Below, one piece after another: positions 2,401 to 24,776 of a stretch of DNA of 64,000 bases (its first letter is position 1; each line of letters starts with the position of its first letter). This stretch comes from Sphingobium lactosutens DS20. Its GTDB lineage: Bacteria > Pseudomonadota > Alphaproteobacteria > Sphingomonadales > Sphingomonadaceae. The notes under the pieces are model-generated. The model made no database searches, was not told where the DNA came from, and saw nothing but the letters and a program-made list of their open reading frames with translations. Location of the stretch: contig NZ_ATDP01000106.1 in the NCBI RefSeq assembly GCF_000445105.1, positions 124,001-188,000 on the forward strand. Reading direction: 5' to 3'. Position numbers and translations under genes: made by a program.

Positions 2401-2675
2401 TTTCTCCTATATCCGCAGACAAAGGCGCGACCGGTGCGAACAGGATTCCGCCACGGTGTGGTGCAGGGCTGTGATTTTTGGCCTGTCGCTGCCCTTGATA
2501 CACCGTTCGGGCAATGCGCCCATTCCAGCCTCTTAGCGTCGGGTATCGCGATATAGGCTTTTTCAATGACGGCCTTTGGCATGCTTCAGAGTACTACCAT
2601 CCTGAAATAGCATGCCATTCACGGCAGCATGAGCAGCATTTTAAGTCTAGAGCATCGTTAGAGAGAGAGTTCTGA
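2401..2675. other. Intergenic stretch after tRNA-Thr, left edge of accessory block
   Basis: No convincing gene, tRNA, or repeat of the tRNA 3' end is seen here. Base composition drops from the GC-rich flank to more AT-rich DNA. The last part carries a GAGAGAGAG ribosome-binding region for the P450 gene. Confidence 0.5.
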
Positions 2676-3899
2676 ATGGGTAATTATCCGACGCCGGAAG
2701 GCTATGATGTTGCGCCCGTATATGGAGAGAATATTTTCGCTCCTGATGCTCTGAAACATCCTTTCAGCCATTATAAAAAGATCAGAGATCTCGGTCCGGT
2801 TGTCCGCCTCCCTACCGATCCGGAGATTTTCGCCCTATCTCGCTTCCATGATATAAAGGAAGCGCTTAATCATCGGGACATTCTGACGTCGAGCAAAGGC
2901 GTGGGATTTAACGACTATGTCAATCGGGAATTTCCCGAACCTCCAACCATTCAGCGCGACGATGAGAGCCATAAGCGGCTGCGTCGCGCTGTTCAGCATA
3001 ATCTGACCCCGGTCGCGCTCAAGCGATACCGGACCATGTTGAAGGAGATCATCGACACGAGGATCAGTGAGGCTGCCAATGGAGAGACGATCGACGCCGT
3101 AACGTCGGTTTCCCAACTTCTTCCGCTCAAAGCCATCAAGCATCTGGTGGGCCTTCCGGAAAACGGACGTGAGCGGATGCTTGAATGGGCCACGGCGACC
3201 TTCAATTCCGGCGGTCCGATCGAAGCCTATGAAGACCGCGAAGCATTCGTGAGGGATGCTGAAATATTGATCGAAGCAATGATGTATGTGCGTCAGGTCA
3301 AGCGAGAGGATCTGGTTGCGGGATCATGGACTTCCGACCTCTTCGACGCGGTAGCCGCAGGCAAGCTGACGATGGGGGAAGCGCATGCCGCGATGAGCGG
3401 GCTCGTTATTCCAAGCCTTGATACAACTATTTTCGCCATGTCGAGCCTTTTATATGCGCTTGGCCAAAATCCTGACCAATATGAAATGCTCAAGCGCGAT
3501 CCAGGTTTGATCTCCGGCGCGGTGTATGAAGCCGTCAGGCATAGCGGTCCTGCCCGATGGTTTTCGCGTTATGCGCTCTCCGACTATGTCGCGGGCGATG
3601 TTTTCATCCCGGCCGGCGCGCGCGTCATGCTGATGTATGCAGCCGCCAATCGCGACGAGCGGCGATATGATGACCCGGATCGCTTTGACATAACGCGCAA
3701 GGCTGGCGATCAACTGGGTTGGGGTGGCGGCCCGCATCTGTGTGGCGGCATGAACCTGGCGAGGCTGGAAATGGAGCTTTTGCTGGAATCGCTCATCGCG
3801 CATGTTGACAGGATTGAGGTGGAAGAGCCGGAATTGAGCGAAAGTCGAGGTCTGTACGGCCTGACCCAGTTGCCTCTCCGCCTGTTCAGGCGCTCATAA
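2676..3899 (+). CDS. Cytochrome P450, CYP199-like
   Basis: A 407-residue soluble bacterial P450. Visible motifs are the I-helix SLDTT (acid-alcohol pair D-T, with Ser where Gly is usual), the K-helix E-A-V-R, and the heme loop WGGGPHLCGG with the thiolate ligand Cys356; the usual Phe of the loop is Trp. Blocks such as SSKGVGFND, FNSGGP and FDITRKAG resemble CYP199 enzymes, which oxidise para-substituted benzoates; that is a recollection-based similarity. No ferredoxin or ferredoxin reductase gene is nearby, so electrons must come from elsewhere. The start ATG follows a GAGAGAGAG stretch. The gene is convergent with the LysR at 3983. Confidence 0.88.
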   Translation: MGNYPTPEGYDVAPVYGENIFAPDALKHPFSHYKKIRDLGPVVRLPTDPEIFALSRFHDIKEALNHRDILTSSKGVGFNDYVNREFPEPPTIQRDDESHKRLRRAVQHNLTPVALKRYRTMLKEIIDTRISEAANGETIDAVTSVSQLLPLKAIKHLVGLPENGRERMLEWATATFNSGGPIEAYEDREAFVRDAEILIEAMMYVRQVKREDLVAGSWTSDLFDAVAAGKLTMGEAHAAMSGLVIPSLDTTIFAMSSLLYALGQNPDQYEMLKRDPGLISGAVYEAVRHSGPARWFSRYALSDYVAGDVFIPAGARVMLMYAAANRDERRYDDPDRFDITRKAGDQLGWGGGPHLCGGMNLARLEMELLLESLIAHVDRIEVEEPELSESRGLYGLTQLPLRLFRRS

Positions 3900-3982
3900 T
3901 CGGGACAGTGGGCGCTGCGGGCAGGGGGGCATGCGGCTTTGACATGCTATGCCGAATGCGGCCAGCGTTTCCGCAACGGGGC

Positions 3983-4891
3983 CTATTCATCATGCTGGTG
4001 ATGGCGTCGCAGATACTCAGCAAACTTCTGCCTGAAAGCCTCGTTCCCTTCGGCGCACACTGCGGCCAAGGGCTGCGGATTATCCCACAGGGGAAAGGGG
4101 ATCGCCACCAGGTCTTTGGAGTCGACCAACGCCTTGACCGCATGCAGCGGGAATATCGACACCATATCAGACTTGAGGACGAAAGTTGATCGGGCCCTGG
4201 CATCGTCTACTTCCAGTGCGATACGTGGACGGCGAACCTTGGCGGCGTCAAACAGGGCGTCGAGGCGATCTCGAAAGATGCTGCCTGGAAAGCCCATGAT
4301 CCATGATGCTCCGCTCAGATCCGCAATGGAGGGTGAAGCCAGATCAGCCAGAGGATGACCCGCGCGGCAATAGACGGAAACAGCGGCATGATCGAAAAAA
4401 ATAGGTTCGGCTTTCAGATCGGCCAATTCGCGTGTCGATGGCATGGGCAGGATAGCAAGATCCAGTCCGCCTTCACGCACGGCTGAGAGTAAGTCGCTAT
4501 CCGACCCGACGATCAGGCGCGCTGCCGTCCTGGGATTGTCATGCGCCAGGTCGGCCAGAGCCTTCGCGAACTGATCCAAAGGGTGAATGGACGATACCCC
4601 GATAGACAATTCTGTTCTCTTCGCAGCCTTGTTGGCTGCAAGACCAGCCTCGGCAGAACGTATCGTGTCCCGTATCTGCCGGGCATGTTCCAGCAATAGC
4701 CGGCCTTCATCGGTAATCTGGATGCCACTTGCATTCCGCAGAAATACCTTCGCACCAATCGCGTCTTCCAACTGGTGTACGGTCCGCGACAAGGCCGGCT
4801 GTGATTTATGCAGCGTCATGGACGCGCGGTTGAATCCTCCCGCGTCATGGATGGCGAGAAAAGTCAGCAGTTGCCCCGGGTCCATTCGCAC
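3983..4891 (-). CDS. LysR-family regulator, copy A
   Basis: A 302-residue LysR protein. The N-terminal winged helix is clear (GGFNRASMTLHKSQPALSRT), followed by a linker helix and a periplasmic-binding-like effector domain. The reading frame opens with GTG at 4891; an in-frame ATG two codons later (4885) is an alternative, and neither has a strong Shine-Dalgarno. The protein is clearly paralogous to the LysR at 21634-22545, sharing DPGQLLTFLAI and GGFNRAS-TLHKSQPAL. It lies downstream of, and in the same direction as, the SDR and flavin reductase genes. It probably regulates part of the catabolic block in response to a pathway compound. Confidence 0.92.
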   Translation of the reverse strand: MRMDPGQLLTFLAIHDAGGFNRASMTLHKSQPALSRTVHQLEDAIGAKVFLRNASGIQITDEGRLLLEHARQIRDTIRSAEAGLAANKAAKRTELSIGVSSIHPLDQFAKALADLAHDNPRTAARLIVGSDSDLLSAVREGGLDLAILPMPSTRELADLKAEPIFFDHAAVSVYCRAGHPLADLASPSIADLSGASWIMGFPGSIFRDRLDALFDAAKVRRPRIALEVDDARARSTFVLKSDMVSIFPLHAVKALVDSKDLVAIPFPLWDNPQPLAAVCAEGNEAFRQKFAEYLRRHHQHDE

Positions 4892-5059: not shown

Positions 5060-5893
5060 TCACACAGTGGCCGGATCAATGAAGATATCTGCCATGAGCG
5101 GATTGCCAGGCGCCGCGGCATAGCAATCAAAGTCGATCACGCCTTCGTCCCGCAATACCGAATCGTCGACCAGGCAATGTCCGGTGAAGGATTTTGCCGG
5201 CTTTGTGATGATTGCATAAGCTGCGTCAGCCATAATTTGCGGCGTTCGCGACTGCCGCAGCATGGCTTCTCCCCCCAGCGCGAATTCCACCGCCGCCGTC
5301 GCGATTGTGGTGCGTGGCCACAAGGTGTTGCAGGCGATGCTATCAGACTGGAATTCGTTAGCCATGCCCATCATGACCATGGTCATACCAAATTTGCTCA
5401 TGGAATAACCCAAATGCGCACCCAGCCATTCGGGGCGCAGATCGAGCGGCGGCGACATGGCGAGAATATGCGGGTTCTCGCTTTTGCGAAGGTGGGGGAT
5501 ACAGGCGCGCGAGACAAGGAAGGTCCCGCGCACGTTGATCTGATGAATAAGATCAAACCGTTTCACGTCAATATCCAGCGACTGTGACAGATCGATCGCT
5601 GAGGCATTATTCACGCAAACATCGATCCCGCCGAACTTGGCGACAGCAGCATTCACCGCAGCCTCAATCGCATCGGCGTCACGCACGTCCAGAACGACCG
5701 GAAGCGCTCTGCCTCCCGCTGCTTCGACTTCTTCGGCGACCGTATAAATCGTGCCGGGCAGGGTGCGATGTGGTTCGGCGGTCTTTGCTGCGATGATCAC
5801 ATTGGCCCCATCGCGCGCGGCGCGCAGAGCGATTGCCTGGCCAATACCGCGGCTGCCACCGGTGATGAACAGCGTTTTGCCTGAAAGTGTCAT
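5060..5893 (-). CDS. Short-chain dehydrogenase/reductase (HSDL2-like)
   Basis: A 277-residue classical SDR. The N-terminal nucleotide site TGGSRGIGQ, the NNAS motif and the catalytic YSMSK (Y-x-x-x-K) are all present, with the upstream Ser in AMSPP. Residues such as P-E-W-L-G-A-H-L-G-Y before the active site recall HSDL2-type SDRs. The start at 5893 is preferred over an upstream in-frame start because GAGAGGGG lies 8-9 bases before it. It shares direction with the flavin reductase (175-bp gap) and LysR A, so a loose operon is possible. The substrate is probably a hydroxy or keto intermediate of the catabolic block. Confidence 0.88.
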   Translation of the reverse strand: MTLSGKTLFITGGSRGIGQAIALRAARDGANVIIAAKTAEPHRTLPGTIYTVAEEVEAAGGRALPVVLDVRDADAIEAAVNAAVAKFGGIDVCVNNASAIDLSQSLDIDVKRFDLIHQINVRGTFLVSRACIPHLRKSENPHILAMSPPLDLRPEWLGAHLGYSMSKFGMTMVMMGMANEFQSDSIACNTLWPRTTIATAAVEFALGGEAMLRQSRTPQIMADAAYAIITKPAKSFTGHCLVDDSVLRDEGVIDFDCYAAAPGNPLMADIFIDPATV

Positions 5894-6068
5894 GGTAAAG
5901 GCCCCTCTCCAATCTTCGATTACACCATCCCGCCGAGCAAATTTGGTCAAATCGTAGGACGATTCGAGACCTTCTATCGTGCAGGTTGCGGAAAAACAAT
6001 GTCCGTCATGCCGCGGAAACAGCGGCGTCCGCCTTTGGGCTGCTCAACGGACTGCAACCAGGACTTTG

Positions 6069-6575
6069 TCAGTTGTCGCACAGGATGGGGAGGTAGGCTC
6101 CGTCTCTGAAACATAGTGCCGAACGCGCTTTGCCACGCACAATGGATGAAACGGTTGCGACGATAATCCTGTGTGAACCGTGATCGACAAATGTTGTTGG
6201 AATTGCGATGATCGACGCCGCAGAGTCAGCCAGTAATGGGACCCCGGTATCGTCATCCCATACCCAATTGCCGATTGTGAAGCGCTCGGGTCCCTTGATC
6301 TCTCCACCGCATGCCCTCGACACTGCTTCATGCTCCGCCGCCAGCATGTTCATCGCAAAGGTCGCGTTATTTTCCATGGCCCGGAACATGCCGTTGGCGC
6401 GATTGATACAAAACAGCATGGATGGCGGGTTCATGCTGACCTCGGCTACGGCCGTCGCAGCCATGGCATAGTCCTGGCCATCCCAGTGGGTCGACATGAC
6501 CCAAACCGGTCGCACTTGCGATCGCAAGGCCCACCGCAGATCTGTGGCGATATCGGTTATTTCACCTGTCGTCAT
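6069..6575 (-). CDS. Flavin reductase domain protein (two-component monooxygenase partner)
   Basis: A 168-residue protein of the HpaC/flavin-reductase-like fold, supplying reduced FMN/FAD to a partner oxygenase. The early motif PVWVMSTHWDG and MAATAVAEVSMNPPSMLFCI match the flavin-binding strand-loop of the family, and a conserved H-R-I-I-V-A-T-V block follows. The start at 6575 has a GAGAGG box upstream. The obvious partner is the acyl-CoA-dehydrogenase-like monooxygenase at 7890-9110, on the far side of the divergent LysR gene. Confidence 0.85.
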   Translation of the reverse strand: MTTGEITDIATDLRWALRSQVRPVWVMSTHWDGQDYAMAATAVAEVSMNPPSMLFCINRANGMFRAMENNATFAMNMLAAEHEAVSRACGGEIKGPERFTIGNWVWDDDTGVPLLADSAASIIAIPTTFVDHGSHRIIVATVSSIVRGKARSALCFRDGAYLPILCDN

Positions 6576-6781
6576 ACTCAATCCTCTCCCCCGCCTCATA
6601 TGGTATGGCAGGATCCGTGGTCGCAGGTGGCACGAATACCGGCACCGCGACGGCAGCATTCCGTTTGGCTATCGTCTTGAGGTCAGGATAGGATGGAACC
6701 TGAAATGAGGGAAATCGGCTGGCGCAATGCCGGCATTGGCAATACCTATTCCGGCACTAACGTGGTGGAGAGGAAACTGGT

Positions 6782-7720
6782 TTGAGAGGGCTCGACCTCA
6801 ATCTGCTTGAACCTCTGGATGCGTTGCTCCAGACCCGAAGCGTTACTGAGGCGGCGCGGCAATTGGGCGTCAGCCAACCGACGATGAGCGGCATGCTGCG
6901 TCGGCTTCGAGATCAATTCTCCGATCCCTTGCTGGTTAGAGTGGGCAAGAGCCTCGTGCTTACGCCGCGTGCGGAAGAAATGGCTGCGGAGGTGCGGCAA
7001 ATCTTGTTGCGGTCGGATCGGCTGATGCAGCCAAAACGCAATTTTACGCCCCAAGACCTGAAGCGCACATTCCGCCTGATGGTATCTGAATATGGGCTCT
7101 GCGTCATATTGCCCGCCGTGTTCCGCAAGATCAGTGCGCTGGCGCCGCAGGTCACTTTCGAAACGGTGCTTCTCGATCAGCCAAATGATAGCGTGTATCA
7201 AGGGCGGGTGGATATGTGCCTGGCAGGCAATCTACCCGGAGGCATATCTAACGAAATTGCGTCCGTTATCAGAATCCGCAAAGTCCTGGACGACCGGTTC
7301 GTGGGAATCGTCGACCAGTCGCATCCGTTGCGAGGGAAGCCGACGCTGGATAAATTTCGACATTTTCCGTATATTGCTCCCAATTTTCCTGGCGTTCACT
7401 GGACGAAAGAAAATGTCGGAGTGGAGGGCTTGCCCCATTATCCACCCTATATCAGCGTGCCCGGGTTTCTCGCCATCGGCCGGCTGGTTTCCGGCACTGT
7501 TTCGGTAGGTATCGTTCCTGAACAGCTTGCCAGCCTCGTGACGACCGAACTGGGTCTGCGGTCGATCGAATTGCCCGAGGCATTTCGCAAGATCGCCATC
7601 AGCCTGCTGTGGCACGAACGTGACGAACAGGATCCGGCGCAGCGGTGGCTGAGGTCGCTCATCGTCGAGGAATGTCGTTCAATCCAGACGCGAACGGTCG
7701 ATCACGGGTCGCCTGACTGA
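6782..7720 (+). CDS. LysR-family regulator, NodD/NahR type
   Basis: A 312-residue regulator starting at TTG; a GGAGAGGA box 7 bases upstream supports this start. The N-terminal LDLNLLEPLDALLQTRSVT followed by SQPTMSGMLRRLRDQF and DPLLVR is characteristic of the NodD/NahR branch, distinct from the two paralogous LysR proteins of this block. It is divergent from the flavin reductase (206-bp gap) and upstream of the monooxygenase, so it is the natural regulator of that two-component enzyme. NahR-type regulators usually answer to aromatic acids; that is inference here. Confidence 0.92.
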   Translation: MRGLDLNLLEPLDALLQTRSVTEAARQLGVSQPTMSGMLRRLRDQFSDPLLVRVGKSLVLTPRAEEMAAEVRQILLRSDRLMQPKRNFTPQDLKRTFRLMVSEYGLCVILPAVFRKISALAPQVTFETVLLDQPNDSVYQGRVDMCLAGNLPGGISNEIASVIRIRKVLDDRFVGIVDQSHPLRGKPTLDKFRHFPYIAPNFPGVHWTKENVGVEGLPHYPPYISVPGFLAIGRLVSGTVSVGIVPEQLASLVTTELGLRSIELPEAFRKIAISLLWHERDEQDPAQRWLRSLIVEECRSIQTRTVDHGSPD

Positions 7721-7889: not shown

Positions 7890-9110
7890 ATGGCGACCGC
7901 GTATAAAACAAATGACACCACACCCATGATGGCCATGGACGATATTCTGGCCCAGGCCCGATCATTGCGACCAATGTTGGCCGAAAGGGCGGCACAGACG
8001 GAAACGGAAGGGCGCGTCAGCCAAGAGGTGACACAGCTTCTCAAGCAGGCGGGGCTATATCGTCTGGGTCAACCAGCCCGATTTGGCGGCCTTGAGTGCA
8101 CGCCCAGCCAACAGTTTCAACTGGGTTTCGAACTTGCCCGCGGTTGCGGAAGCACGGGTTGGTGCTCCATGCTCGCCAACGGCAATAGCTGGATGGCGTC
8201 GTTCTGGCCCCTTGAGGCGCAGAATGACGTCTGGTTGGAGAACCCCGACAACATCCTGTCCTGCACCTTTTTCCCGACCGGCAAAAGCCAGGCAGCCGAT
8301 GGCGGATATCTGGTAGAGGGCAGCTGGCCGTTTGCAAGCAATTGCGACAATGCCGACTGGTTCTTCGTATCCGCGCCTCTTCCCGAAACCGACGAAGGGG
8401 AGCGCGGGGCAGGATGGTTTCTGGTCCCCCGCAAGGATATCGACATCGATCATGACAGCTGGCGCGTGGCGGGCATGCAGGGCAGCGGCAGCAAGACGCT
8501 GCGTTCGACAGCGCCCATTTTCGTGCCTTCCCACCGGATGATCCGGTTGAACGATGTTGCACGCGGAACCATCCCCGGCCGTGATGTCCCCGGGAACGTC
8601 AATGCAGCCTTCTCCTTTGCGACCTTCGGGTCCATTATGCTCGTTGGCCCATTGCTCGGCATCGCTCAGGCAGCACATGACTGGTATTGTGAGGCGATGC
8701 GGACCAAGGTCAAGGGTGGCCTGAAACCGGGTGCGGCCCTGACGGTCGCTCAAACCCCGCAAGCCCAGGCGAGAGCCGGTGAAGCCCAGGCGAAAATCGA
8801 TGCGGCGATTGCCCTTATCCTGCATGATCTACCGCCGCTGGAGGCGAAAATCCGCAGCGGACAGACTTTGACTCAGGCCGAGAGGGTGAAGGTTCGCCGC
8901 GATGTTGCTTTCGCCGCGCGCCAGGCTAGCGATGCGGTCAATTTGTTGTTTGAAGGCGCCGGCGCAAGTTCGGCGTCTCTGGATGCGCCAATCCAGCGTC
9001 ACTGGCGTGACGTCAATGTGGGGACCCGGCACACGAGCATGGATGTGCAGGCGATCTACGCGATGGTCGGGCAGCAAAGCTTCGGTCTTGAACCGGTGGG
9101 AGTGTATTGA
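7890..9110 (+). CDS. Flavin-dependent monooxygenase of the acyl-CoA dehydrogenase fold (HsaA/IacA-like)
   Basis: A 406-residue protein of the acyl-CoA dehydrogenase fold, group D flavin monooxygenase branch. The GCGSTGWCSMLANGNSW segment matches the GSTGW block seen in HsaA, IacA and related hydroxylases, and the C-terminal domain (GAGASSASLDAPIQRHWRDV, then R-H-T-S-M-D) matches their C-terminus. Such enzymes hydroxylate aromatic or heteroaromatic compounds using reduced flavin from a separate reductase, here probably the product of 6069-6575. The start ATG has AGGAGAG upstream. True acyl-CoA dehydrogenase activity is less likely because of the GSTGW block and the nearby reductase. Confidence 0.85.
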   Translation: MATAYKTNDTTPMMAMDDILAQARSLRPMLAERAAQTETEGRVSQEVTQLLKQAGLYRLGQPARFGGLECTPSQQFQLGFELARGCGSTGWCSMLANGNSWMASFWPLEAQNDVWLENPDNILSCTFFPTGKSQAADGGYLVEGSWPFASNCDNADWFFVSAPLPETDEGERGAGWFLVPRKDIDIDHDSWRVAGMQGSGSKTLRSTAPIFVPSHRMIRLNDVARGTIPGRDVPGNVNAAFSFATFGSIMLVGPLLGIAQAAHDWYCEAMRTKVKGGLKPGAALTVAQTPQAQARAGEAQAKIDAAIALILHDLPPLEAKIRSGQTLTQAERVKVRRDVAFAARQASDAVNLLFEGAGASSASLDAPIQRHWRDVNVGTRHTSMDVQAIYAMVGQQSFGLEPVGVY

Positions 9111-9487
9111 CCATGACTTCCGGCTGCTCGTTGCCAGGCAGCGAGTAGCCGACCCTTTGTTTCATACCCCCGATCACATGAGCGAATGCCAACTGGCGAT
9201 CGAACATGCTACGGGAGCATTTGCACAGGGCTTCCGCTTTGGAAAGCAGCGCTGCCTTGGCTGGCCACGCCGCAGAGCATATAAAGTCGTTCCGCTGAAT
9301 TGGTGATGACCCGATTGCACGCCATTGGGGCAGTGCCCATCCTGTGCGCATAAGGCCATCAGACGTTTCAATTATGGCCTGAGGTGGTCCTGCTTTAGGC
9401 ATAGAAGTGCTTGCGGACCCAAATCTTCATGCAACATATATTCGTGCCATGTCTCAGCAATGAGTGTGGCGACCAATAAGGCGAGAC
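9111..9487. other. 377-bp gap, no gene recognised
   Basis: Nothing with coding character of its own could be recognised on either strand; open frames here are short and lack ribosome-binding sites. The end carries an AAGGCGAGAC box for the next gene. A promoter for the molybdenum hydroxylase genes probably lies here but no convincing -35/-10 pair stands out. Confidence 0.4.
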
Positions 9488-9994
9488 ATGGCTAAGATAA
9501 GCGTGTGCGTGAACGGAGAGAGGATCGACCGCGACGTCGAGCCGCGGCGGTTGTTGGTGGAGTTCCTGCGCGAAGACCTGCGCCTGACGGGCACGCATGT
9601 CGGATGCGACACGACCCAATGTGGCTGCTGTACGGTTCGGCTTAACGGGGACGCGATAAAATCCTGCACGATCCTGGCTGTCCAGGCTGACGGGGGCACC
9701 ATCGAGACGATCGAGGGGGCAGGCACGGTCGATGCGCTGCATCCGGTTCAGCGAGGGTTCCGCGCGTGTCACGCATTGCAATGCGGTTTCTGCACCCCTG
9801 GCATGATCATGAGTTCGGTTGCGCTGCTTGATCGCAATCCTGATCCCAGTGAATCCGAAATCCGCCATGCGCTTGACGGCAATATCTGCCGCTGCACGGG
9901 ATATCAGGGCATTGTGGAGGCCGTACAGTTTGCCGCCAGGGTCATGGCGGGGGAAGATCCGGCTGAATTGGAGGCTGCTCGTGCTGCGCACTGA
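9488..9994 (+). CDS. Molybdenum hydroxylase small subunit, [2Fe-2S] protein (CoxS/XdhA-like)
   Basis: A 168-residue iron-sulfur subunit. The plant-type ferredoxin cluster is bound by Cys40, Cys45, Cys48 and Cys60 ([12 protein letters not shown] then KSC). The second cluster uses Cys in [12 protein letters not shown] and NICRCTGY. It passes electrons from the molybdopterin centre of the large subunit (10037) to the FAD subunit (13536, opposite strand). The ATG at 9488 with AAGG upstream was chosen over an in-frame start 8 codons earlier. Confidence 0.93.
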
Positions 9995-13428: not shown

Positions 13429-13535
13429 TAAGGGTCCTTTGGATTGCGTTCGCATTGACCGACGGGCGATGGTCAGGGGGATGACACGGCGCCCGGATCA
13501 TGAAGAAGTGTGAAGGTAGAGCTGGCGCGACAGGC

Positions 13536-14339: not shown

Positions 14340-14708
14340 GCCCAACCTCGTCCTCTCCGCAGTGCCACGGCCGGAATCCGATTATGTCCCGGCTTCCGCC
14401 TCGATCCGCGCGTCGCGTGCCTTGTGTGAGACCGGCATAGCAGTGGTGATGCGGGCTTGGCACATAGAATGCTGATATGGCCCCATGCGGGATCGACGCC
14501 GGAAGATTGAGGCAATCGGACAGACTCCATATGTTATCTGTCCGGAGCGGACCCTTATAGGGGCCATAGCAACCGACTTGATCGAAAAATGGTTGAAATC
14601 GCATGGTAGCGCATAACCCCATCTGCCTTTTCGATTATATCTGGCGGTCCATTTCACCGATGAATTTCAAAACAGCGGAGCATTGCTCCTTGGGGTGGAG
14701 TTTGAAAG
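14340..14708. promoter_or_regulatory. Divergent control region between the FAD subunit and crotonase 2
   Basis: A 369-bp gene-free region feeding two outward-facing transcription units. It contains an inverted repeat with 8-bp perfect arms, CGGACAGA at 14517-14524 and TCTGTCCG at 14537-14544, whose centres are 20 bp apart (two helical turns). A -10-like TTATAG lies just to its right. This spacing suits a dimeric regulator such as LysR or TetR. The regulator is not identified. Confidence 0.4.
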
Positions 14709-15594: not shown

Positions 15595-16347
15595 ATGCTG
15601 GCATATGAACGCTTTGGCCATGGCGACCAAAAAATACTCGCCTTGCATGGATGGATGGGAGACGAACATTTGCTCGATCCCATGCGCCATGCACTCGACC
15701 AAAGCGCCTTTGAGTTCGTTGTCCCGGCCTACCGGGGCTATGGCGCTTCCGCGCATATGCGCGGCGTCTATGATCTGGACGAAATTGTTTCTGACCTGGG
15801 TGAATTGATCGAAAGCCTGGGCTGGAATGAGTTTCTCGTGATCGGCCATTCCATGGGTGGTTTGATCGGGCAGCGCTTATTGGCCTTATATCCGGACAGA
15901 TTGATCAAGCTTGCCTGTGTTGCGTCCGTTCCGCCTTCTGGCGCGCAGTTTGATGATCAGACGTTCAGCATGTTTCATGCTGCTGCTGACAATCTGGAGG
16001 TGCGTCGCGGACTGCTCGATTTCTCGACCGGCCATCGCCTTCCCTCCGCATGGCTCGACCATGTCATCAGCCAAACCGCTTCGGCGCAGCCCGAGGCCAT
16101 GCAGGGCTATTTGGAGATGTTTGCGCGGTCTGACCTCACTCCGCTTGTCACAGGCATAGAAACGCCGATCCTGGTGCTGGCCGGCGGCAAAGAGCCGATG
16201 GACGTCGAGACTGTCTTCAAGGACACGTTCGCGCAGGCATATCCAAATGCGACATTCGAGATGTTGGCGGAAACCGGCCACTGCCCGATCGACGAAGCGC
16301 CGATCTATGTCGCGGGCGCTGTCCAGGGATTTTTCAGGGCGCAGTGA
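15595..16347 (+). CDS. Alpha/beta hydrolase 1
   Basis: A 250-residue alpha/beta-fold hydrolase. HGWMGDEH is the oxyanion-hole loop, GHSMGGLIG the nucleophile elbow with catalytic Ser, and ETGHCPIDEAP carries the catalytic His. There is no signal peptide. An AGAGGATA box precedes the ATG. Such enzymes in catabolic clusters hydrolyse ring-fission products, lactones or esters; the substrate here is unknown. It is codirectional with crotonase 2 (148-bp gap) and the CoxG-like gene. Confidence 0.88.
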   Translation: MLAYERFGHGDQKILALHGWMGDEHLLDPMRHALDQSAFEFVVPAYRGYGASAHMRGVYDLDEIVSDLGELIESLGWNEFLVIGHSMGGLIGQRLLALYPDRLIKLACVASVPPSGAQFDDQTFSMFHAAADNLEVRRGLLDFSTGHRLPSAWLDHVISQTASAQPEAMQGYLEMFARSDLTPLVTGIETPILVLAGGKEPMDVETVFKDTFAQAYPNATFEMLAETGHCPIDEAPIYVAGAVQGFFRAQ

Positions 16348-16389: not shown

Positions 16390-16857
16390 ATGGCAGTTGA
16401 AATGAATGGCAGCGTTGACCTTGGCGCTCCGCCGGAAGTCGTGTGGAAAAAACTCAACGATCCTGAGACGCTGAAATCCTGCATTCCGGGCTGTGAAACG
16501 CTGGAGCTGGATGGAGCAAACGCTTTCGTCGCGGCCGCAGTTTTGAAAATTGGCCCGATGAAGGCCAAGTTTAAGGGGCGTGTGGAACTGTCAGATCTCG
16601 ATCCTCCGCACGGCTATCGCATATCTGGCGAAGGGCAGGGCGGCATCGCCGGATATGCCAAGGGCGGCGCCGTGGTCCGGTTGACCCCGCTGGGTGCGGA
16701 ATCGACCACGCTGAGTTACGAGGTGACGGCGAATGTTGGCGGAAAAATTGCGCAACTGGGCGCCCGCCTTTTGGACTCCGTCGCGAAAAAATATGCCGAC
16801 CAGTTTTTTGCGTCTTTCGCCGCGACTATGCCGTCTATCGAACCTCATGTCAGCTGA
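16390..16857 (+). CDS. CoxG-like SRPBCC protein
   Basis: A 155-residue protein of the CO dehydrogenase subunit G family (SRPBCC/START fold). It begins with the typical GSVDLGAPPEVVWKKLNDPE and CIPGCETL blocks, with the conserved G-P-M-K-A-K-F-K-G strand. CoxG proteins are linked to membrane attachment or maturation of molybdenum hydroxylases. Its presence ties this rightward operon to the CoxS/L/M subunits of the same block. It starts 42 bp after the hydrolase. Confidence 0.9.
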   Translation: MAVEMNGSVDLGAPPEVVWKKLNDPETLKSCIPGCETLELDGANAFVAAAVLKIGPMKAKFKGRVELSDLDPPHGYRISGEGQGGIAGYAKGGAVVRLTPLGAESTTLSYEVTANVGGKIAQLGARLLDSVAKKYADQFFASFAATMPSIEPHVS

Positions 16858-17011
16858 ATAAGCAACGCATCCAGTTGCGATTGATGGTTTCCAATATACG
16901 ATTTGTTCTTAGGGAGTGATGCTCCTGATTGAATATAATAAATCCGATGACGGGCGAAGATGAGCCTGTGCGGAGAATTAGCTTATAGATCTCTATTTTT
17001 TGGATCCGGCC

Positions 17012-18187
17012 ATGACACCTCTACCGCTTTCCCATTTGCGCGTGCTTGACCTGTCGCGAGTCAGGGCGGGTCCCACCTGCGTCAAATTTTTCGGTGACTT
17101 TGGCGCTGATGTCATAAAGATAGAGCGGACCGATGGCGGCGGAGACCCGATGGGCGACAATCGCCTGTCTTCGGACTATGTGAATGCGCAGCGCAACAAG
17201 CGGGGCATCACGCTGGACCTGAAACGGCCGGAGGGCGTGGCCGTGCTCAAGCGGCTGGTCGAGACAGCGGATATTCTGGTGGAAAATTTCCGGCCGGATG
17301 TAAAAACGAAGCTGGGCATTGACTATGACAGCCTGTCGGCGGTCAACCCGCGGCTGATCTACACATCCGTTTCGGCCTTTGGTGAAACCGGACCCTACCG
17401 AACCCGTCCCGGATTCGATCTCATCGCGCAAGGCATGGGCGGATTGATGTGGCTGACCGGTTATGAAAATCAGGGGCCGCTGCGGGTCGGAATGTCACCG
17501 GCTGATATGAGTGCCGGTATTTTCGCTGCGATGGGCACGTTCATCGCCTTGGCCGAGCGGGAACGGTCCGGCAGGGGGCAATGGGTGCAGACCAATCTCC
17601 TGTCTTCCCAGATCATGATGCTGGACTATCAGGCGATGGCCTGGTTAATGGACAAGCGTATTCCCCAGCAACGCGGCAACGACCATCCTCAGATCGTGCC
17701 GACCGGTGTCTATGAATCATCGGATGGCTACTTCACCCTCTCGACCGTAGGGAATGATAGTTATCACCGGCTGTGCCGGGCGATCGGTGCTCCCGAATTG
17801 ATTGACGATGCCCGATTTACAGATGCGCGGCTGCGGGAGCAAAATAGGGACGCCATGAACGCGGCCATAAACGATGCGACGCGCGCGAAGACGGCAGCGG
17901 AGTGGGTGGATATCTTGAACGCCGCGGGGGTGCCGGCGGGGCCGATTTACAAGCTGGACGAGATGTTCGAAGACCCACAAGTCCAGGAAACCGGGATCGC
18001 GACTAAGCTTGATCACCCTGTTCTGGGCGAAATAGAGATACTGGGGCAGCCGATTACACTCAGCCGGACGCCGGCCAGCTTTCGCAACGCACCGCCGGAA
18101 CTGGGGCAGCATACGGAGGAGGTCCTTGCGGCGGCTGGGTATGACAGCGATGAAATTGCCCGGCTCAGGCGCGAGAACATCATCTGA
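17012..18187 (+). CDS. CaiB/BaiF type III CoA-transferase
   Basis: A 391-residue family III CoA-transferase that moves CoA from an acyl-CoA donor to a carboxylic acid through an aspartyl-CoA thioester. The N-terminal LRVLDLSRVRAGPTCVKFFGDFGADVIKIE and the RPGFDLIAQG loop with the nucleophilic Asp (about residue 136) are present, as is the family C-terminus. The ATG at 17012 is chosen over a TTG four codons earlier; the ribosome-binding site is weak. It is the only CoA-activating enzyme in the block, so it probably forms the thioester used by the two crotonases. Confidence 0.92.
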   Translation: MTPLPLSHLRVLDLSRVRAGPTCVKFFGDFGADVIKIERTDGGGDPMGDNRLSSDYVNAQRNKRGITLDLKRPEGVAVLKRLVETADILVENFRPDVKTKLGIDYDSLSAVNPRLIYTSVSAFGETGPYRTRPGFDLIAQGMGGLMWLTGYENQGPLRVGMSPADMSAGIFAAMGTFIALAERERSGRGQWVQTNLLSSQIMMLDYQAMAWLMDKRIPQQRGNDHPQIVPTGVYESSDGYFTLSTVGNDSYHRLCRAIGAPELIDDARFTDARLREQNRDAMNAAINDATRAKTAAEWVDILNAAGVPAGPIYKLDEMFEDPQVQETGIATKLDHPVLGEIEILGQPITLSRTPASFRNAPPELGQHTEEVLAAAGYDSDEIARLRRENII

Positions 18188-18321
18188 TGCGTTCATGCCA
18201 TGAGGCGTAATCAATGCCCTGGCGGTTAGGTATCTGGCGGGAATGGTCGCAGGTTGCGTTGAACAACTGAGCGACTGAACGCGTGCGCCGTCGATTCCGC
18301 GGCGCTTCAGGGAGTAAAGCT

Positions 18322-18609
18322 ATGCCTGCATATTTTGTCGCGATCCGCAATTCGGTACATGATGCGGATGAGATGGATATTTACCGGGACATGGCCCGGG
18401 CAGCGGCCGCGGGCCATTCCTTCAAACGTCATGCGTCCTATGGGCGGGTACGCAGCACCGAAGGGGAACCGGTGGAGGGTGCAGTCATCCTCGAGTTTCC
18501 GACATTTGAAGCGGCAGAGGCCTGGTATGATAGCCCTGAATATCAGGCGGCCATGGCGCATCGTCGTGCAGGTGCGGATTACCGGACCTTCATCATCGAC
18601 GGGATCTGA
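18322..18609 (+). CDS. DUF1330-like small protein 1 (95 aa)
   Basis: A 95-residue dimeric alpha-beta barrel candidate. It starts MPAYFVAIRNSV and contains the EFPTFEAAEAWYDSPEYQAA motif characteristic of DUF1330/EthD-like proteins. GGGAG lies upstream of the ATG at 18322. A second protein of exactly 95 residues with the same organisation is at 22580. Roles proposed for the fold include binding or rearranging small aromatic intermediates; none is proven here. It closes the rightward operon before a convergent TonB receptor. Confidence 0.8.
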   Translation: MPAYFVAIRNSVHDADEMDIYRDMARAAAAGHSFKRHASYGRVRSTEGEPVEGAVILEFPTFEAAEAWYDSPEYQAAMAHRRAGADYRTFIIDGI

Positions 18610-18876: not shown

Positions 18877-21222
18877 TCAGAATGAGAAGGAGGCCCTTAC
18901 ACCATAGGAGCGAGGGCGACTGACGGAATTACAGCGCAAAGCCGACCTGCCCGTGGCGGGGTCGACGACGCCCAGCAAGCCACCAAGGGCTTGATAGGTA
19001 TATGACGTGCAGTATCCAGTATCCGTCAGATTGTCTCCGAAGACGGAAACGCTCCATCGATCATCCTTCCCGTACAATGTCGCGCGGGCGCTCAGCAATT
19101 GATAGGCCGGCTGGACGGTATACGGGTCTGCATTGTTGATCTGGTTGATGTTGGCTGAAGAAACGAATGACACATCACTGCGAAATAGGAACCGCATTCC
19201 CCCCGATATGTCATGGCGGAATTCAGCGCCCAGGCTGCCGGACCATTTTGGAGCAAATGTCGGCCGTTCGCCCGTGATGTCGCGCGTGCCGGTCTGGCCT
19301 GGAAGGGCGGTCGCCGTCGGGTAGGAGGTGAAGACGGCATCCAGATAGCTGACAGACGCGTTGAAGCGCAAAACTTCGCTGAGGCGAAGCTGCATGTCCG
19401 TTTCGACCCCCTGGTTTCGAAGATCGCCGGCGTTGACGACGCGAAACGCGATGCCATTTGTCAGCCGATCCTGGAAATTCTTCACCTTCATGCGAAACAA
19501 GGTGACGTTGAGTTGAAGCAGTTTGTCGAACAGCTCCGACTTCATCCCGATTTCGGCGCTGCGCACGGTTTCCGGCTTCAAGGTCCGATCAAGCAATGTA
19601 CCGGGAGGGGCCGGGGGAAGCGCGCCAGTCAATGTGCTGGAATCAAAGCCGCCGGATTTGTACCCGGTCGAATAGGAACCAAAGAACAGCAAATTGTCGG
19701 TCGGTCGCCAGTTGAGATTGGTTCGGTACGTGAAGCGCTCATTGGCCAGGGCCAGACGGCGGTCTTCCGGCAGAGCGAAATTCGCGCCCAAAGACCTGTT
19801 CACCACCTGGATGGCGTGCCCCGATTTTTCGTCGCGGGTCCAGCGACCGCCCAGAACCAGGTCAACCGTCGGCAGAAGCTTGAAGGTCGTCTGGGCATAG
19901 GCGGCGTAGCTGTCCGTCACCTGGGTGAAGCGGCGATTGAACAGGTCTGTGTTGGTCTGGCCGGGGCAAACCGCGCCCGGAGGTCCAGCAGGAAACAGCA
20001 GCCTGCACCCATCGGTGTAAATTTGATAGGCATCGTCGCTGAGCCAGCTCTCATGGAAATAATAAAGGCCTGCCACAAAGCTCAACCGACCATCGAGCAA
20101 CCTGTCCGTTGGCGAAATCAGTTGCAATTCATGGCAATGGCTTTTGCTTTTGTAGGAAAGGAAATCGGAAAGCGTTGGTGTTTCGACGCCGAAAACATTG
20201 GTCAGCGCAGTAGAATTTTCCCAATATTGATAGGCGTCGATAAGCTTCAGGCTGAACCCTGAATCAAAATCCCACTGCAGCGTGGAATTTACGCCCCATT
20301 GAGTGTCATCCACATGGTCGCCGACATATTGGTTGAATCTGTGGTCGAACGGCGTCAAATCGACATCATTGGAGCCGATCGTCGCCAAACGGGCCAGGAA
20401 GCCCGGCAGCCTTCCGTCAGGTATCGAACTTGTCAGCAGCGCGCCCATTGCCGCTTCATTGCCATTCCGGCGAGCAACATTGCCCCGCACGATCCAGCTA
20501 AGGTTGCTGCTGAGATCAAACTTGCCGGACAGTCGCAGCGCGAAGCTGTCCGAAGCCCCATAATGTTTGTCGTCCAGACGGTTGTACCACAAACCGCGAT
20601 TGAGTTCGCCAAAGCCCGCCAGTCGGAGGGCAGCCCCGTCACTGATCGGCACGTTGACATAGCCTTCGGTCCGATAGCGTTCGCCATTTCCGATCTCGGC
20701 GGCCAGATTGCCGGAAAACGTATCTTCCGGCAGAGCCGACCGCAAATTGATTGCGCCGACTGACGCATTGCGGCCAAACAGCGTCCCTTGCGGACCGCGA
20801 AGCAGTTCCAGTCCTTGCAAATCGAGATAGGCGCCCACCATCTGGGCTTCGCGCGGGATGTAAACGCCGTCCAGGAATCCTGCCACGCTGGGTTCGATCG
20901 CGGTCCCGCCCTGCGAACCGACGCCACGAACGATGACACGGGCGCGCGTTGCGCCGATACCCGTATCGACGCGCAGGCTCGGCGCGACGCGAGGAAGATC
21001 GTAAATTGTCACGATGTTGGAATTCTTCAACATCGTATTGTTGAGCGCTGTGATGGAAATCGGCACGTCCTGAACATTTTCTGCCCGGCGCTGCGCTGTC
21101 ACGATGATGTCTTCAGAGCTATTCTGTGTCTCGGCTTCAACTGCTGCCTCCTGCGCAAACGCAGTAAAAGGCGTCAGCAAGCAAATTGCTGCGACGGAAC
21201 TAGCCAGCACGATTTTATTCAT
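18877..21222 (-). CDS. TonB-dependent outer-membrane receptor
   Basis: A 781-residue outer-membrane receptor. A signal peptide (MNKIVLASSVAAICLLTPFT, cleavage after FAQ) is followed by a TonB-box/plug start EDIIVTAQRRAENVQDVPIS. A plug with RVIVRGVGSQGG and LRGPQGTLFGRNA comes next, then a beta-barrel ending GVRASFSF with the terminal Phe of outer-membrane proteins. The start at 21222 has GGGGAGGA upstream. Sphingomonad receptors of this class import varied organic substrates, not only iron. In this setting it probably imports the compound degraded by the block. It is divergent from LysR copy B. Confidence 0.93.
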   Translation of the reverse strand: MNKIVLASSVAAICLLTPFTAFAQEAAVEAETQNSSEDIIVTAQRRAENVQDVPISITALNNTMLKNSNIVTIYDLPRVAPSLRVDTGIGATRARVIVRGVGSQGGTAIEPSVAGFLDGVYIPREAQMVGAYLDLQGLELLRGPQGTLFGRNASVGAINLRSALPEDTFSGNLAAEIGNGERYRTEGYVNVPISDGAALRLAGFGELNRGLWYNRLDDKHYGASDSFALRLSGKFDLSSNLSWIVRGNVARRNGNEAAMGALLTSSIPDGRLPGFLARLATIGSNDVDLTPFDHRFNQYVGDHVDDTQWGVNSTLQWDFDSGFSLKLIDAYQYWENSTALTNVFGVETPTLSDFLSYKSKSHCHELQLISPTDRLLDGRLSFVAGLYYFHESWLSDDAYQIYTDGCRLLFPAGPPGAVCPGQTNTDLFNRRFTQVTDSYAAYAQTTFKLLPTVDLVLGGRWTRDEKSGHAIQVVNRSLGANFALPEDRRLALANERFTYRTNLNWRPTDNLLFFGSYSTGYKSGGFDSSTLTGALPPAPPGTLLDRTLKPETVRSAEIGMKSELFDKLLQLNVTLFRMKVKNFQDRLTNGIAFRVVNAGDLRNQGVETDMQLRLSEVLRFNASVSYLDAVFTSYPTATALPGQTGTRDITGERPTFAPKWSGSLGAEFRHDISGGMRFLFRSDVSFVSSANINQINNADPYTVQPAYQLLSARATLYGKDDRWSVSVFGDNLTDTGYCTSYTYQALGGLLGVVDPATGRSALRCNSVSRPRSYGVRASFSF

Positions 21223-21633
21223 GTCCGATCCTCCCCTGACGTCGAACGTCATCCGTTATTTCGCACCGCCCTTTTTGAGTATCATTCGGAAACTCTCCCA
21301 CGGGGGGGAGCCTGTCTCGGAAATATGGGTCCGGCTTATTGTCAGCCGATGTCAGATCATACTCTGCATGGCCTAATAGAAATGTCTGATTGGCGGAGCG
21401 GGGATATGACGGGGGCGTTGCTTGATATGGGTATGACTGATTTTGATAAGATAAGTGTTGCCGGCTCCTTTATTGAGTGAAGAGAAATTGCTTGCAGAGA
21501 GGATGGGCGCGGGGACCGAGTGGAGGCGCGGCTTGGGGCGCCGTATTTCGCTGGTCTAAATCTGGCGGGAACTTATGAAGGACGAGCTAAAGGCAGCTTG
21601 CATCACGCCAAGCCAGAAGAGCAGGGGGCCACA
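21223..21633. promoter_or_regulatory. Divergent control region between the TonB receptor and LysR copy B
   Basis: A 411-bp region without a convincing gene. Right next to the receptor's ribosome-binding site is a palindrome, TGACGT-CGA-ACGTCA at 21237-21251. AT-rich tracts occur at about 21430-21470. LysR regulators usually bind such divergent regions, so this is a likely site of autoregulation and receptor control. The exact promoter elements were not resolved. Confidence 0.4.
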
Positions 21634-22545
21634 ATGGTGACGCGGATTGATCCGGGGCAATTGCTGACATTTCTTGCGATTTATGAGGCTGGTGGCTTCA
21701 ATCGGGCCTCGTCCACACTGCATAAATCTCAGCCAGCGCTGACCCGAACCGTTCACCGACTGGAAGATATGAGCCAGACCAAGGTGTTCACGCGCAACGT
21801 AAATGGCGTGGAGTTGACGACAGACGGGAAAATGCTTCTGGCGCACGCGCGGGTCATACGAGCCAGCCTGAAGGAAGCCGAGCGTGGACTGGCTCGCCTC
21901 ATGGAAGGGCGACCTGTCCAGATCATCATTGGCACCGCGCCGGTTCATCCGCTCAATATTTTTGCCAATGCCGTATCTGATCTGATGGCTGAAAGGCCAG
22001 AGATGGATGTCAGGCTGCTAAGCCAATCGGAGTCCGGCCTGTTGTCCTCCCTGCGCGACGGAGACATTAATTTCGCCGTTCTCCCGATGCCCGGTCCACA
22101 ACAGGTCGCGGAGTTTCACATTCAGCCCGTTTTTGAAAATCGCGTCGCGATCTTCTGCCGACCGGACCATCCTCTCGCCCAGAATGAAAATCCCACCATC
22201 GATGATTTGAGTTCGGCCGGCTGGATTCTGGGTCCGTCCGGCAGCGTATTGCGCGACAGGCTGGAGGCATTGTTTGCCAGCGAAGGGCGACAACCGCCCG
22301 ACATCGTCTTGGAGGTGGAGGACCAGCGGATACGGCGCATGTTGCTTGTCGAAAGTCCGTATCTTTCCGTCTTTGCGCGACACAATGTCGTAGAGTTGGT
22401 TCAGTCGAAACAACTTGTCGAAATTCCATTTTCGTTCGCGCAAGCGCCAAGACCCGTGGTGGCGCTCGCCTTGAAGGAGAACGAGCATATGGAAAATTTT
22501 GTCCGCCATCTGCGCCGACATTATGAAAAGAGCATGTTCCCATGA
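21634..22545 (+). CDS. LysR-family regulator, copy B
   Basis: A 303-residue LysR regulator paralogous to copy A (3983-4891). Both share IDPGQLLTFLAI/MDPGQLLTFLAI, GGFNRAS-TLHKSQPAL and a similar effector domain with A-V-L-P-M-P-related blocks. The start at 21634 has AGGGGG upstream and gives a protein aligned with the paralogue's N-terminus; a longer in-frame opening from 21520 is not supported. It is divergent from the TonB receptor and followed 34 bp later by the second DUF1330-like gene. Confidence 0.92.
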   Translation: MVTRIDPGQLLTFLAIYEAGGFNRASSTLHKSQPALTRTVHRLEDMSQTKVFTRNVNGVELTTDGKMLLAHARVIRASLKEAERGLARLMEGRPVQIIIGTAPVHPLNIFANAVSDLMAERPEMDVRLLSQSESGLLSSLRDGDINFAVLPMPGPQQVAEFHIQPVFENRVAIFCRPDHPLAQNENPTIDDLSSAGWILGPSGSVLRDRLEALFASEGRQPPDIVLEVEDQRIRRMLLVESPYLSVFARHNVVELVQSKQLVEIPFSFAQAPRPVVALALKENEHMENFVRHLRRHYEKSMFP

Positions 22546-22967: not shown

Positions 22968-23867
22968 ATGCCCTTCATCGACACCCCTGACTGTTCGCTC
23001 TATTATGAAGAAACCGGCAGTGGAGTGCCGATCATCTGGATCCACGAATTTGCTGCTGATTGCCGCACCTGGGAAGCGCAGGTGCGCCGGTTCAGTCGCG
23101 ACCACCGTTGCATCACCTATAACGCCAGGGGCTATCCGCCTTCTTCCGTGCCTGAGGATGGAAAGGCATATACCTATGTTCGACAGCGGGACGATCTGCT
23201 GGCGATCATGGATGCCCTGGACATTGAAAAGGCGCATCTCGTCGGGTTGAGCATGGGTGCTTACACCGGTCTTCAGTTCGCGATGTCATATCCCGGACGC
23301 GTTCTGTCGCTGGTTTTTTCCAGCGGCGGATCGGGCGCGCCCAAGGGGGACCGCGAGGCTTTCAAGGTCGAGACATATAAGGGCGCCGACCGCATGTTGA
23401 ACGAAGGGATGGTTGCGGGCGCTCATGGGCTTGCGATGGGGGCAACACGGGTACAACTTCTCAACAAGGATCCGCGCGGATGGCAGGAGTTTCGACAACA
23501 GATGGCGGAACATTCCGCGCTGGGATCGGCACTCACCCTGAAAAATTTCCAGGCAATCCGGCCCTCCTTGCATGATTTCGAGGATGAGTTGCGTAAATTG
23601 GATGTGCCAGTCCTGTTGGCGGTCGGCGATGAGGATGATCCGGTAATTGATGCCAATATCTTCCTCAAACGGACCATGCCGCGTGCAGGGCTTTGGATTC
23701 ATCCCAAGACCGGGCATGGCCTCAATCTTGAGGAGCCGGACGAATTCAACCATCGTGTCGCCGCTTTCCAGATTGCCGTGGAACGAGGCAAATGGCCGAG
23801 GAGAGATGCGCGGGCCAACCCCAACCAGTCCATTTTTATGGGAGACAAGTCGGAAGGGGCGCCGTGA
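22968..23867 (+). CDS. Alpha/beta hydrolase 2
   Basis: A 299-residue alpha/beta hydrolase. The nucleophile elbow is GLSMGAYTG, the acid residue lies in VGDEDDPV and the catalytic His in KTGHGLNLEEP. The oxyanion loop reads HEFAAD rather than the common HG-containing loop. GGGAG precedes the ATG at 22968. Its TGA overlaps the ATG of the following SDR (TGATG), so the two are translationally coupled. It probably hydrolyses an ester, lactone or C-C bond in the pathway. Confidence 0.88.
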   Translation: MPFIDTPDCSLYYEETGSGVPIIWIHEFAADCRTWEAQVRRFSRDHRCITYNARGYPPSSVPEDGKAYTYVRQRDDLLAIMDALDIEKAHLVGLSMGAYTGLQFAMSYPGRVLSLVFSSGGSGAPKGDREAFKVETYKGADRMLNEGMVAGAHGLAMGATRVQLLNKDPRGWQEFRQQMAEHSALGSALTLKNFQAIRPSLHDFEDELRKLDVPVLLAVGDEDDPVIDANIFLKRTMPRAGLWIHPKTGHGLNLEEPDEFNHRVAAFQIAVERGKWPRRDARANPNQSIFMGDKSEGAP

Positions 23868-24610
23868 TGGATCTGGGCCTTGAAGGAAGGGTCGCGCTGG
23901 TCACGGGTGCGTCGCAAGGTATTGGGGCAGCTACCGCGATGCAGCTGGCGGAGGCGGGCTGCGACATCATTCTTGCCGCCAGATCGGAAGGAAGGCTGCG
24001 ACGCGTAGCGGACGACATTGTCGCGCGCTTCGGGCGCAAGGCTGACATATTTGCGGCTGATCTTTCGTCGTCGAAGGCTGTCGCCGCGCTTGCCGATCGT
24101 GCCGGAGCAGTGGACATTCTTGTCAATAATGCGGGTGCTGTTCCAGGCGGCAGGCTGGAGGATATTGGCGAGGATGAATGGCGGGCGGCGTGGGACCTCA
24201 AGGTCTTTGGCTATATCAATCTGACACGCCTGATCTACCCGCAGATGGCATCCCGCGGAAATGGTGTGATCGTCAATGTGATTGGCGCCGCCGCCCAGAT
24301 ACGCAACCCCACCTACATATGCGGCGTCGCTGGCAATGCGGCCTTGACGGCATTCACCATGTCCATCGGCAGCGATAGTCATCGCAACGGTGTGCGCGTC
24401 GTCGGCGTCAGCCCGGGACCGGTCGCGACAGAGCGTCTCGATAATCTGGGTGAGGCAGCGGTCAAGCAGGACGCTATGCCCTTTGGTCGTGCCGCGGACC
24501 CTGAAGAAATCGCGTCAGCCATCGCATTCCTGGCGTCGCCTCGATCAGGCTACACCTCTGGAACGGTCCTGATGGTGGATGGCGGAATGTCGGCTCGCGC
24601 GGCTGGATGA
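23867..24610 (+). CDS. SDR-fold protein lacking the usual catalytic tetrad
   Basis: A 247-residue Rossmann-fold SDR protein. The nucleotide site TGASQGIG and the NNAG motif are intact and the C-terminal SGTVLMVDGG is typical. The active-site region reads YICGVAGNAALTAF: when GNAAL is aligned with the usual SKAAL, both Tyr and Lys of Y-x-x-x-K are replaced, and no catalytic Ser is seen upstream (NVIGAAA). Related SDR proteins with A/G-G-N-A-A-L are known to me in catabolic gene sets, but their reaction is unclear. The start overlaps the upstream hydrolase stop. It is the last gene of the accessory block. Confidence 0.85.
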   Translation: MDLGLEGRVALVTGASQGIGAATAMQLAEAGCDIILAARSEGRLRRVADDIVARFGRKADIFAADLSSSKAVAALADRAGAVDILVNNAGAVPGGRLEDIGEDEWRAAWDLKVFGYINLTRLIYPQMASRGNGVIVNVIGAAAQIRNPTYICGVAGNAALTAFTMSIGSDSHRNGVRVVGVSPGPVATERLDNLGEAAVKQDAMPFGRAADPEEIASAIAFLASPRSGYTSGTVLMVDGGMSARAAG

Positions 24611-24776
24611 CAGCAAGGCGCGGTCTGTGTCCCGCGACGCAGCAGTCTCAAACCCTGTTTCCGACATGATCTGCCGTTAAGTCCCTTCTCGCGTCACGCA
24701 GATCAATCTCGATGCGCGCCAACAAAATCGCAGTGCGGCATTTTCGCGCCGCGCAAAATGCTCTAGGTCGCGCGCC

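Follow-up and report, generated by a model that had tools for sequence, protein, structure and literature searches.

A tRNA-adjacent catabolic block in Sphingobium lactosutens DS20 with partial similarity to genes of carbofuran-degrader plasmids

Which compound is degraded by the genes lying between tRNA-Thr(GGT) and an ABC-F gene in Sphingobium lactosutens DS20, and how did these genes come to be there? The block occupies positions 2401–24776 of the window, by which we mean the whole analyzed stretch of 64,000 nucleotides (positions 124,001–188,000 of contig NZ_ATDP01000106.1). The source assembly (5.35 Mb, 110 contigs) had an estimated contamination of 7.8%. Catabolic blocks of such kind are common in sphingomonads. 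A preliminary description of this one, made from the sequence alone, considered it to be acquired, could not name its pathway, and suggested a new route for an aromatic or heterocyclic carboxylate. Our analysis agrees that the block beside the tRNA gene is very probably catabolic and horizontally acquired, and no gene-by-gene match to a characterized pathway was found. The lack of a nameable pathway held for the block as a whole, but not for four of its genes, encoding a hydrolase (ABH2), a crotonase (ECH1), a CoA-transferase (CoAT3), and, weakly, a DUF1330 protein, which matched a gene run on plasmids of carbofuran degraders. These matches and an HsaA-type monooxygenase in the block suggest that an alkylated phenol is a likelier substrate than a carboxylate. 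We therefore tentatively favor a route for phenolic compounds bearing an alkyl or branched side chain; its lower part would be related to the carbofuran-phenol (cfd) pathway.

Borders, composition and distribution

The tRNA gene named in the preliminary description was located at the left border of the block, and the right border was placed where homology with related genomes returned.

2326..2400, plus strand: tRNA-Thr(GGT), left border of the block
24748..24776, no strand: right border, where homology with relatives restarts, ahead of the ABC-F gene

The block had also been described as more AT-rich than its flanks, and this was confirmed. Its GC content was 0.575, versus 0.650 in the left flank and 0.643 in the right flank, and the mean GC content at third codon positions (GC3) was 0.65 in 14 long open reading frames (ORFs) inside the block versus 0.74 in 21 outside. 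The maximal AT-rich segment of the window (2184–24798) was close to the span from tRNA-Thr to ABC-F, and none of 1000 shuffles of 500-bp blocks gave a segment as extreme. The borders were compared with ten relatives per side, eight genomes being common to both sets. DNA homology 3' of tRNA-Thr stopped at 2400–2408 in all ten relatives, and homology at the ABC-F side started at 24748–24775, again in all ten.

The block was rare among relatives. For the family searches, in a family sample of 397 genomes, the best two to five candidates per genome were scored for the HsaA-like monooxygenase, the large subunit of a molybdenum hydroxylase (CoxL), CoAT3, and ABH2. Of the 94 genus genomes, 3 had an HsaA relative (E ≤ 1e-80), as had 10 of the 397 family genomes; both counts include the own genome. 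CoxL (E ≤ 1e-200), CoAT3 (E ≤ 1e-180), and ABH2 (E ≤ 1e-60) were each found in the own genome alone (1/397). Relatives of the cytochrome P450 of the block (E ≤ 1e-80) occurred in four of the 94 genus genomes including the own, and the other three were 39–48% identical. A megablast-level search of 72,556 plasmid records gave no match to the block DNA. Deviant composition, sharp borders at a tRNA gene, and a sporadic distribution are features that the block has in common with tRNA-associated genomic islands, and transfer is presumably its origin.

Known marks of integration were not found. No integrase was encoded by the 20 Pfam-scanned ORFs of the block, the window contained no second copy of the tRNA 3' end, and the longest border (att) repeat was 8 bp, the same as in shuffled sequence. 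Integrases were present in all 11 genomes surveyed, with none on the contig of the window among the matches listed, a survey to which no weight is given. The expected empty-site junction was not found either, as ABC-F had no match in the 15-kb stretch downstream of tRNA-Thr in any of the ten relatives; where both genes could be placed, ABC-F was distant from tRNA-Thr or on a different contig, two genomes lying outside this comparison. In the ten downstream stretches, the matches to block genes were all distant (24–44%) and confined to Cox, TonB, LysR, SDR, and flavin-reductase genes; the ten ABC-F stretches held no match to block genes at E ≤ 1e-10. The gene pepP was present in 61 of 61 genomes searched, and tRNA-Thr lay near pepP in 29 of the 30 loci fetched, the own locus counted. 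A PaoABC-like molybdenum oxidoreductase was located downstream of tRNA-Thr in several relatives but had an inverted position upstream of pepP in the own genome, and this different placement indicates that the locus has been rearranged. A tRNA-Gly accompanies this oxidoreductase upstream of pepP (positions 13447–17625 of the fetched locus), and the unit sits in the opposite orientation downstream of tRNA-Thr in several relatives. A misassembly of the draft at this locus is possible.

Oxygenases and the molybdenum hydroxylase

The families named in the preliminary description were recovered from the block: the P450 and the HsaA-like monooxygenase, the molybdenum hydroxylase, a CoA-transferase of type III, crotonases and alpha/beta hydrolases (two of each), the TonB receptor, and three LysR genes. 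CoxM, CoxG, a flavin reductase, and two SDRs had not been named there, and the reported DUF1330-like pair was reduced to one DUF1330 gene among the 20 scanned ORFs. The genes of the oxidative enzymes are as follows.

2676..3899, plus strand: cytochrome P450 (PF00067), distant from CYP199
6069..6659, minus strand: flavin reductase (PF01613), match to the HsaB model under its cut-off
7890..9110, plus strand: HsaA-like flavin monooxygenase, oxygenase component (Pfam, NCBIfam, and PDB matches)
9464..9994, plus strand: molybdenum hydroxylase [2Fe-2S] subunit, CoxS type (Pfam)
10037..12451, plus strand: molybdenum hydroxylase large subunit, CoxL type (Pfam, NCBIfam, and PDB matches)
13536..14345, minus strand: molybdenum hydroxylase FAD subunit, CoxM type (Pfam)
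16390..16857, plus strand: CoxG-like SRPBCC protein (PF06240, 127 bits)

The P450 had been called CYP199-like, and its top PDB matches were CYP199A2 and CYP199A4, which speaks for the aromatic carboxylate route that this enzyme had been suggested to begin. At the CYP199A4 positions R92, S95, R243, and S244, which we take to be the carboxylate contacts, the block P450 has E, T, S, and G, respectively. The CYP199 assignment was rejected because three of these four contacts (R92, R243, and S244) are lost. No separate ferredoxin or ferredoxin reductase gene was found among the scanned block ORFs, and no CoA ligase was found among the 20. With most of the carboxylate contacts of the P450 lost, no CoA ligase among the scanned ORFs, and a monooxygenase of a type that acts on phenols, a carboxylate is not favored as the substrate, and an aromatic carboxylate route begun by a CYP199-like P450 is highly improbable. 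A heterocycle is still compatible with the block because the molybdenum hydroxylase fits one.

The characterized two-component monooxygenases of the HsaA type hydroxylate phenols, and 2-isopropylphenol is hydroxylated by one of them, IppA1A2, according to the available part of one report (PMC12442392). The block enzymes resemble the group D flavin monooxygenases HsaAB and IppA1A2 in family and in having an oxygenase with a separate flavin reductase, but the likeness to IppA1 is at the family level, and the oxygenase scored 291 bits against the equivalog cut-off of 450 for HsaA (NCBIfam NF045629), so that HsaA proper was rejected. The flavin reductase gene, 1.2 kb from the HsaA-like gene on the opposite strand, likely encodes the partner of the oxygenase.

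The molybdenum hydroxylase was complete, comprising CoxS, CoxL, and CoxM plus CoxG, with its genes split over both strands. Aerobic CO dehydrogenase was rejected, as CoxL scored 461 bits against a cut-off of 991 (NCBIfam TIGR02416). The best plasmid relatives of CoxL were rhizobial (49–51%), and a UbiD decarboxylase gene adjoined the CoxL relative in the single rhizobial region read.

This enzyme is the basis of a rival explanation, the degradation of an N-heterocycle or other heteroaromatic compound, in which the molybdenum hydroxylase would hydroxylate beside the heteroatom, the HsaA-like enzyme would add a second hydroxyl group, and the CoA-transferase, crotonases, and hydrolases would open the ring without a dioxygenase. 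The complete CoxSLM set with CoxG is in line with such a route, as is quinoline 2-oxidoreductase, the third-best PDB match of CoxL. Clusters with similar enzyme classes were found in Rhodococcus erythropolis BG43 (pRLCBG43, locus 3404–22274) and Sphingobium estronivorans AXB (locus 8652–20771), where HsaA, SRPBCC/CoxG, CoxMLS, an alpha/beta hydrolase, a CoA-transferase, an ECH, and an M24 protein co-occur; the BG43 stretch names no ring-cleavage dioxygenase, its gene table being incomplete. The HsaA proteins (48–51%) and CoA-transferases (37–40%) of these clusters were similar to those of the block, but CoxL was only 28% identical, and the crotonase was 29–32% identical to ECH1. The extra M24 protein, 65% identical between BG43 and AXB, had no match in the window or the 20 kb on either side. 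No published account of the BG43/AXB operon was apparent from titles and the beginnings of abstracts, and a quinolone (BG43) or estrogen (AXB) reading was not adopted, as these titles and abstract beginnings did not mention the operon. Likewise, nothing fitting was found for the enzyme combination in the literature; the one text match, to judge from the part available, apparently concerned phenanthrene in Stenotrophomonas. The relatives listed for the block CoxL carry no assigned aromatic substrate, and a heteroaromatic route leaves the 72–77% matches to carbofuran-degrader plasmids unexplained. We consider this explanation unlikely.

CoA-pathway genes and the carbofuran-degrader plasmids

The remaining genes encode CoA-pathway enzymes, hydrolases, SDRs, regulators, and a transport protein.

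3983..4891, minus strand: LysR1 regulator, 47% identical to LysR3
5060..5950, minus strand: SDR1, PRK08278 subfamily (443 bits, cut-off 250)
6782..7720, plus strand: LysR2 regulator (Pfam)
12643..13455, minus strand: ECH1 crotonase, PRK06127 subfamily (338 bits, cut-off 291)
14709..15446, plus strand: ECH2 crotonase (Pfam)
15595..16347, plus strand: ABH1 alpha/beta hydrolase (Pfam)
17000..18187, plus strand: CoAT3, family III CoA-transferase, start probably at 17012 (391-aa form)
18283..18609, plus strand: DUF1330 protein, single copy seen
18877..21252, minus strand: TonB-dependent outer-membrane receptor (Pfam)
21520..22545, plus strand: LysR3 regulator (Pfam)
22968..23867, plus strand: ABH2 serine-type alpha/beta hydrolase, start probably at 22968, revised from 22776
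23867..24610, plus strand: SDR2, PRK06125 subfamily (314 bits, cut-off 261)

In the plasmid collection, CoAT3 (77%), ABH2 (72%), and ECH1 (50%) had their best matches on plasmids of the carbofuran degraders Sphingobium CFD-1 and CFD-2. Together with DUF1330 (weakly, 32%), they matched one contiguous run on pCFD-1-4 and pCFD-2-4 in the order FAAH-VOC-ABH-ECH-CoAT-DUF1330, with IS6100 copies close by. The hydrolase of the CFD plasmids shares the C-terminal tail of ABH2, a protein with the serine nucleophile motif GLSMG, the stop codon of which overlaps the start of SDR2 (TGATG). The CFD-1 segment also carried an HsaA-type oxygenase (an acyl-CoA-dehydrogenase-type gene, 239 bits) and a VOC protein, and the CFD-2 segment carried an FAD monooxygenase. 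From the strain, gene families, and gene order, we infer that this run is the cfd cluster. The VOC protein and FAD monooxygenase match the expectation for cfd because CfdE belongs to the glyoxalase family and CfdI is a monooxygenase of the TfdB type (PMC4498121). The HsaA-type gene of CFD-1 would be CfdC, which forms a two-component hydroxylase with CfdX of strain CDS-1, as stated in a review (PMC8292978). The same review describes the operon cfdABCDEFGH of strain KN65.2, which is not within a mobile element, and a proposed route in which the ring-fission product finally yields 3-hydroxy-3-methylbutanoate and 2-oxopent-4-enoate; flanking IS6100 copies are therefore not a strict requirement for cfd. 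The best PDB match of CoAT3 was succinate--hydroxymethylglutarate CoA-transferase, which makes 3-hydroxy-3-methylbutanoate a plausible target of this enzyme.

The CFD plasmids have relatives of ABH2, CoAT3, ECH1, and DUF1330, and an HsaA-type oxygenase is encoded both there and in the block. The plasmid genes are contiguous and accompanied by a VOC protein, FAA hydrolases, and IS6100, whereas the block combines a P450 with a molybdenum hydroxylase, SDRs, and a TonB receptor. The window and its surroundings (20 kb on either side) gave no match to IS6100, VOC, or FAAH, whereas the same search found IS6100 twice in another locus.

Several observations weigh against a cfd-related lower part. The cfd-like genes of the block are scattered over both strands, its HsaA-like enzyme is only 26% identical to the HsaA-type enzyme of CFD-1, and the annotation of the CFD stretches includes neither a P450 nor a molybdenum enzyme. 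A search for a CfdE-type dioxygenase over the window and 20 kb on either side gave no match, with a self-match as the control; CfdE had no match in the own genome either, in a search that lacked a positive control and thus carries no weight. ECH1 has Ala at both positions that are Glu in a short-chain enoyl-CoA hydratase (5z7r) and a 3-hydroxypropionyl-CoA dehydratase (5zai), and a plain hydration or dehydration is doubtful because both catalytic glutamates are missing. This double replacement was common to the CFD-1, Roseivivax, and Octadecabacter relatives, while the Azospirillum relative retained one Glu (both Ala in four of the five members compared). In a large protein database, at least 33 full-length CoAT3 entries of at least 80% identity, the own excluded, ranked above the CFD-1 protein (77%). 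The closer relatives include Sphingobium MK2, Bradyrhizobium sp. 200, and Sphingopyxis, Phenylobacterium, and Rhodoblastus metagenome-assembled genomes, and 20 of 106 class genomes, counting the own, had looser relatives (E ≤ 1e-120). As many closer relatives lie outside carbofuran degraders, CoAT3 by itself names no substrate; MK2, for example, was isolated as a phenanthrene degrader, as far as the available part of its report states (PMC11812290). The comparison of ABH2 covered only the plasmids and the 397 family genomes. Furthermore, the first product given for CFD-1 itself is 4-hydroxycarbofuran phenol, the later steps being described as unknown in the same review (PMC8292978); since this first step differs, the route to 3-hydroxy-3-methylbutanoate belongs to KN65.2. 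The combination of genes is also not the rule elsewhere, because among the best 80 of at least 245 confirmed loci around HsaA relatives, three had a molybdenum hydroxylase match, three had a CoA-transferase match, and one had both. Finally, a putative conserved linkage of HsaA, CoxL, and CoAT3, described next, is deduced from an equal contig size and source.

The block might instead be a patchwork of at least two short catabolic modules (P450/LysR1; reductase/LysR2/HsaA; Cox; and CoAT/ECH/ABH) accumulated beside the tRNA gene. The frequent strand changes and the presence of three LysR genes, two hydrolases, and two crotonases would fit this explanation, and parts of the block were found separately. 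A LysR2 relative adjoined HsaA in six of the ten fetched relatives, there without Cox, CoAT, or ECH matches, and in Roseivivax, Octadecabacter, and Azospirillum, a CoAT-ECH pair was seen with none of the other oxygenase genes. However, the composition was fairly even across 19 block genes (GC 0.55–0.62, GC3 0.58–0.70). In addition, among the matches listed, the closest relatives of HsaA (80%) and of CoxL (74%), together with a CoAT3 relative ranking among the three closest (84%), were each on a 17,386-bp metagenome contig of source lgn; owing to the same size and source, these were taken as one contig, on which the three genes are probably linked again. We regard a patchwork, like a heteroaromatic route, as unlikely.

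A few further observations are recorded here. Relatives of HsaA (66%) and CoAT (81%) were both on a 2,799-bp contig or contigs of the same source, which may reflect adjacent genes or a coincidence and was not used. An ECH1-type crotonase adjoins family III CoA-transferases in several alphaproteobacteria. LysR1 and LysR3, 47% identical, are paralogues close to the opposite ends of the block. Outside the block, a terC RNA (RF03067) was detected at 31257–31329 with 56 bits, above the gathering score.

A possible route for a substituted phenol

For the favored route, in which the phenol carries an alkyl or branched side chain, we infer the substrate class, the order of the steps, and the activity of each enzyme as follows. 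The TonB receptor would import the compound, the P450 and SDRs would oxidize the substituent, and the HsaA-like oxygenase with the flavin reductase would hydroxylate the phenol ring. No ring-cleavage dioxygenase was found among the scanned block ORFs. Ring opening may proceed via a dioxygenase encoded elsewhere, or the molybdenum enzyme may hydroxylate first and hydrolysis follow; more generally, the P450, molybdenum enzyme, and SDRs may act on the substituents or on the ring. The opened product would be hydrolyzed by ABH2 with the release of a branched acid, which CoAT3 would convert into a CoA thioester, and the crotonases would pass this thioester on to central metabolism. The three LysR proteins would serve as regulators.

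A more specific proposal, which we consider quite improbable, is that the lower cfd pathway was drawn from a pool of which the block is a natural relative, and that the block opens the ring without a dioxygenase: the molybdenum hydroxylase and the HsaA-like enzyme would over-hydroxylate the ring, ABH2 and the glutamate-less crotonase would cut it, and CoAT3 would activate the branched fragment.

The block is a testable candidate for an unassigned aromatic pathway, partly tied to genes that occur in bacteria degrading a synthetic insecticide. Should a natural branched phenol be its substrate, the block would hint at where the non-xenobiotic relatives of the carbofuran genes live.

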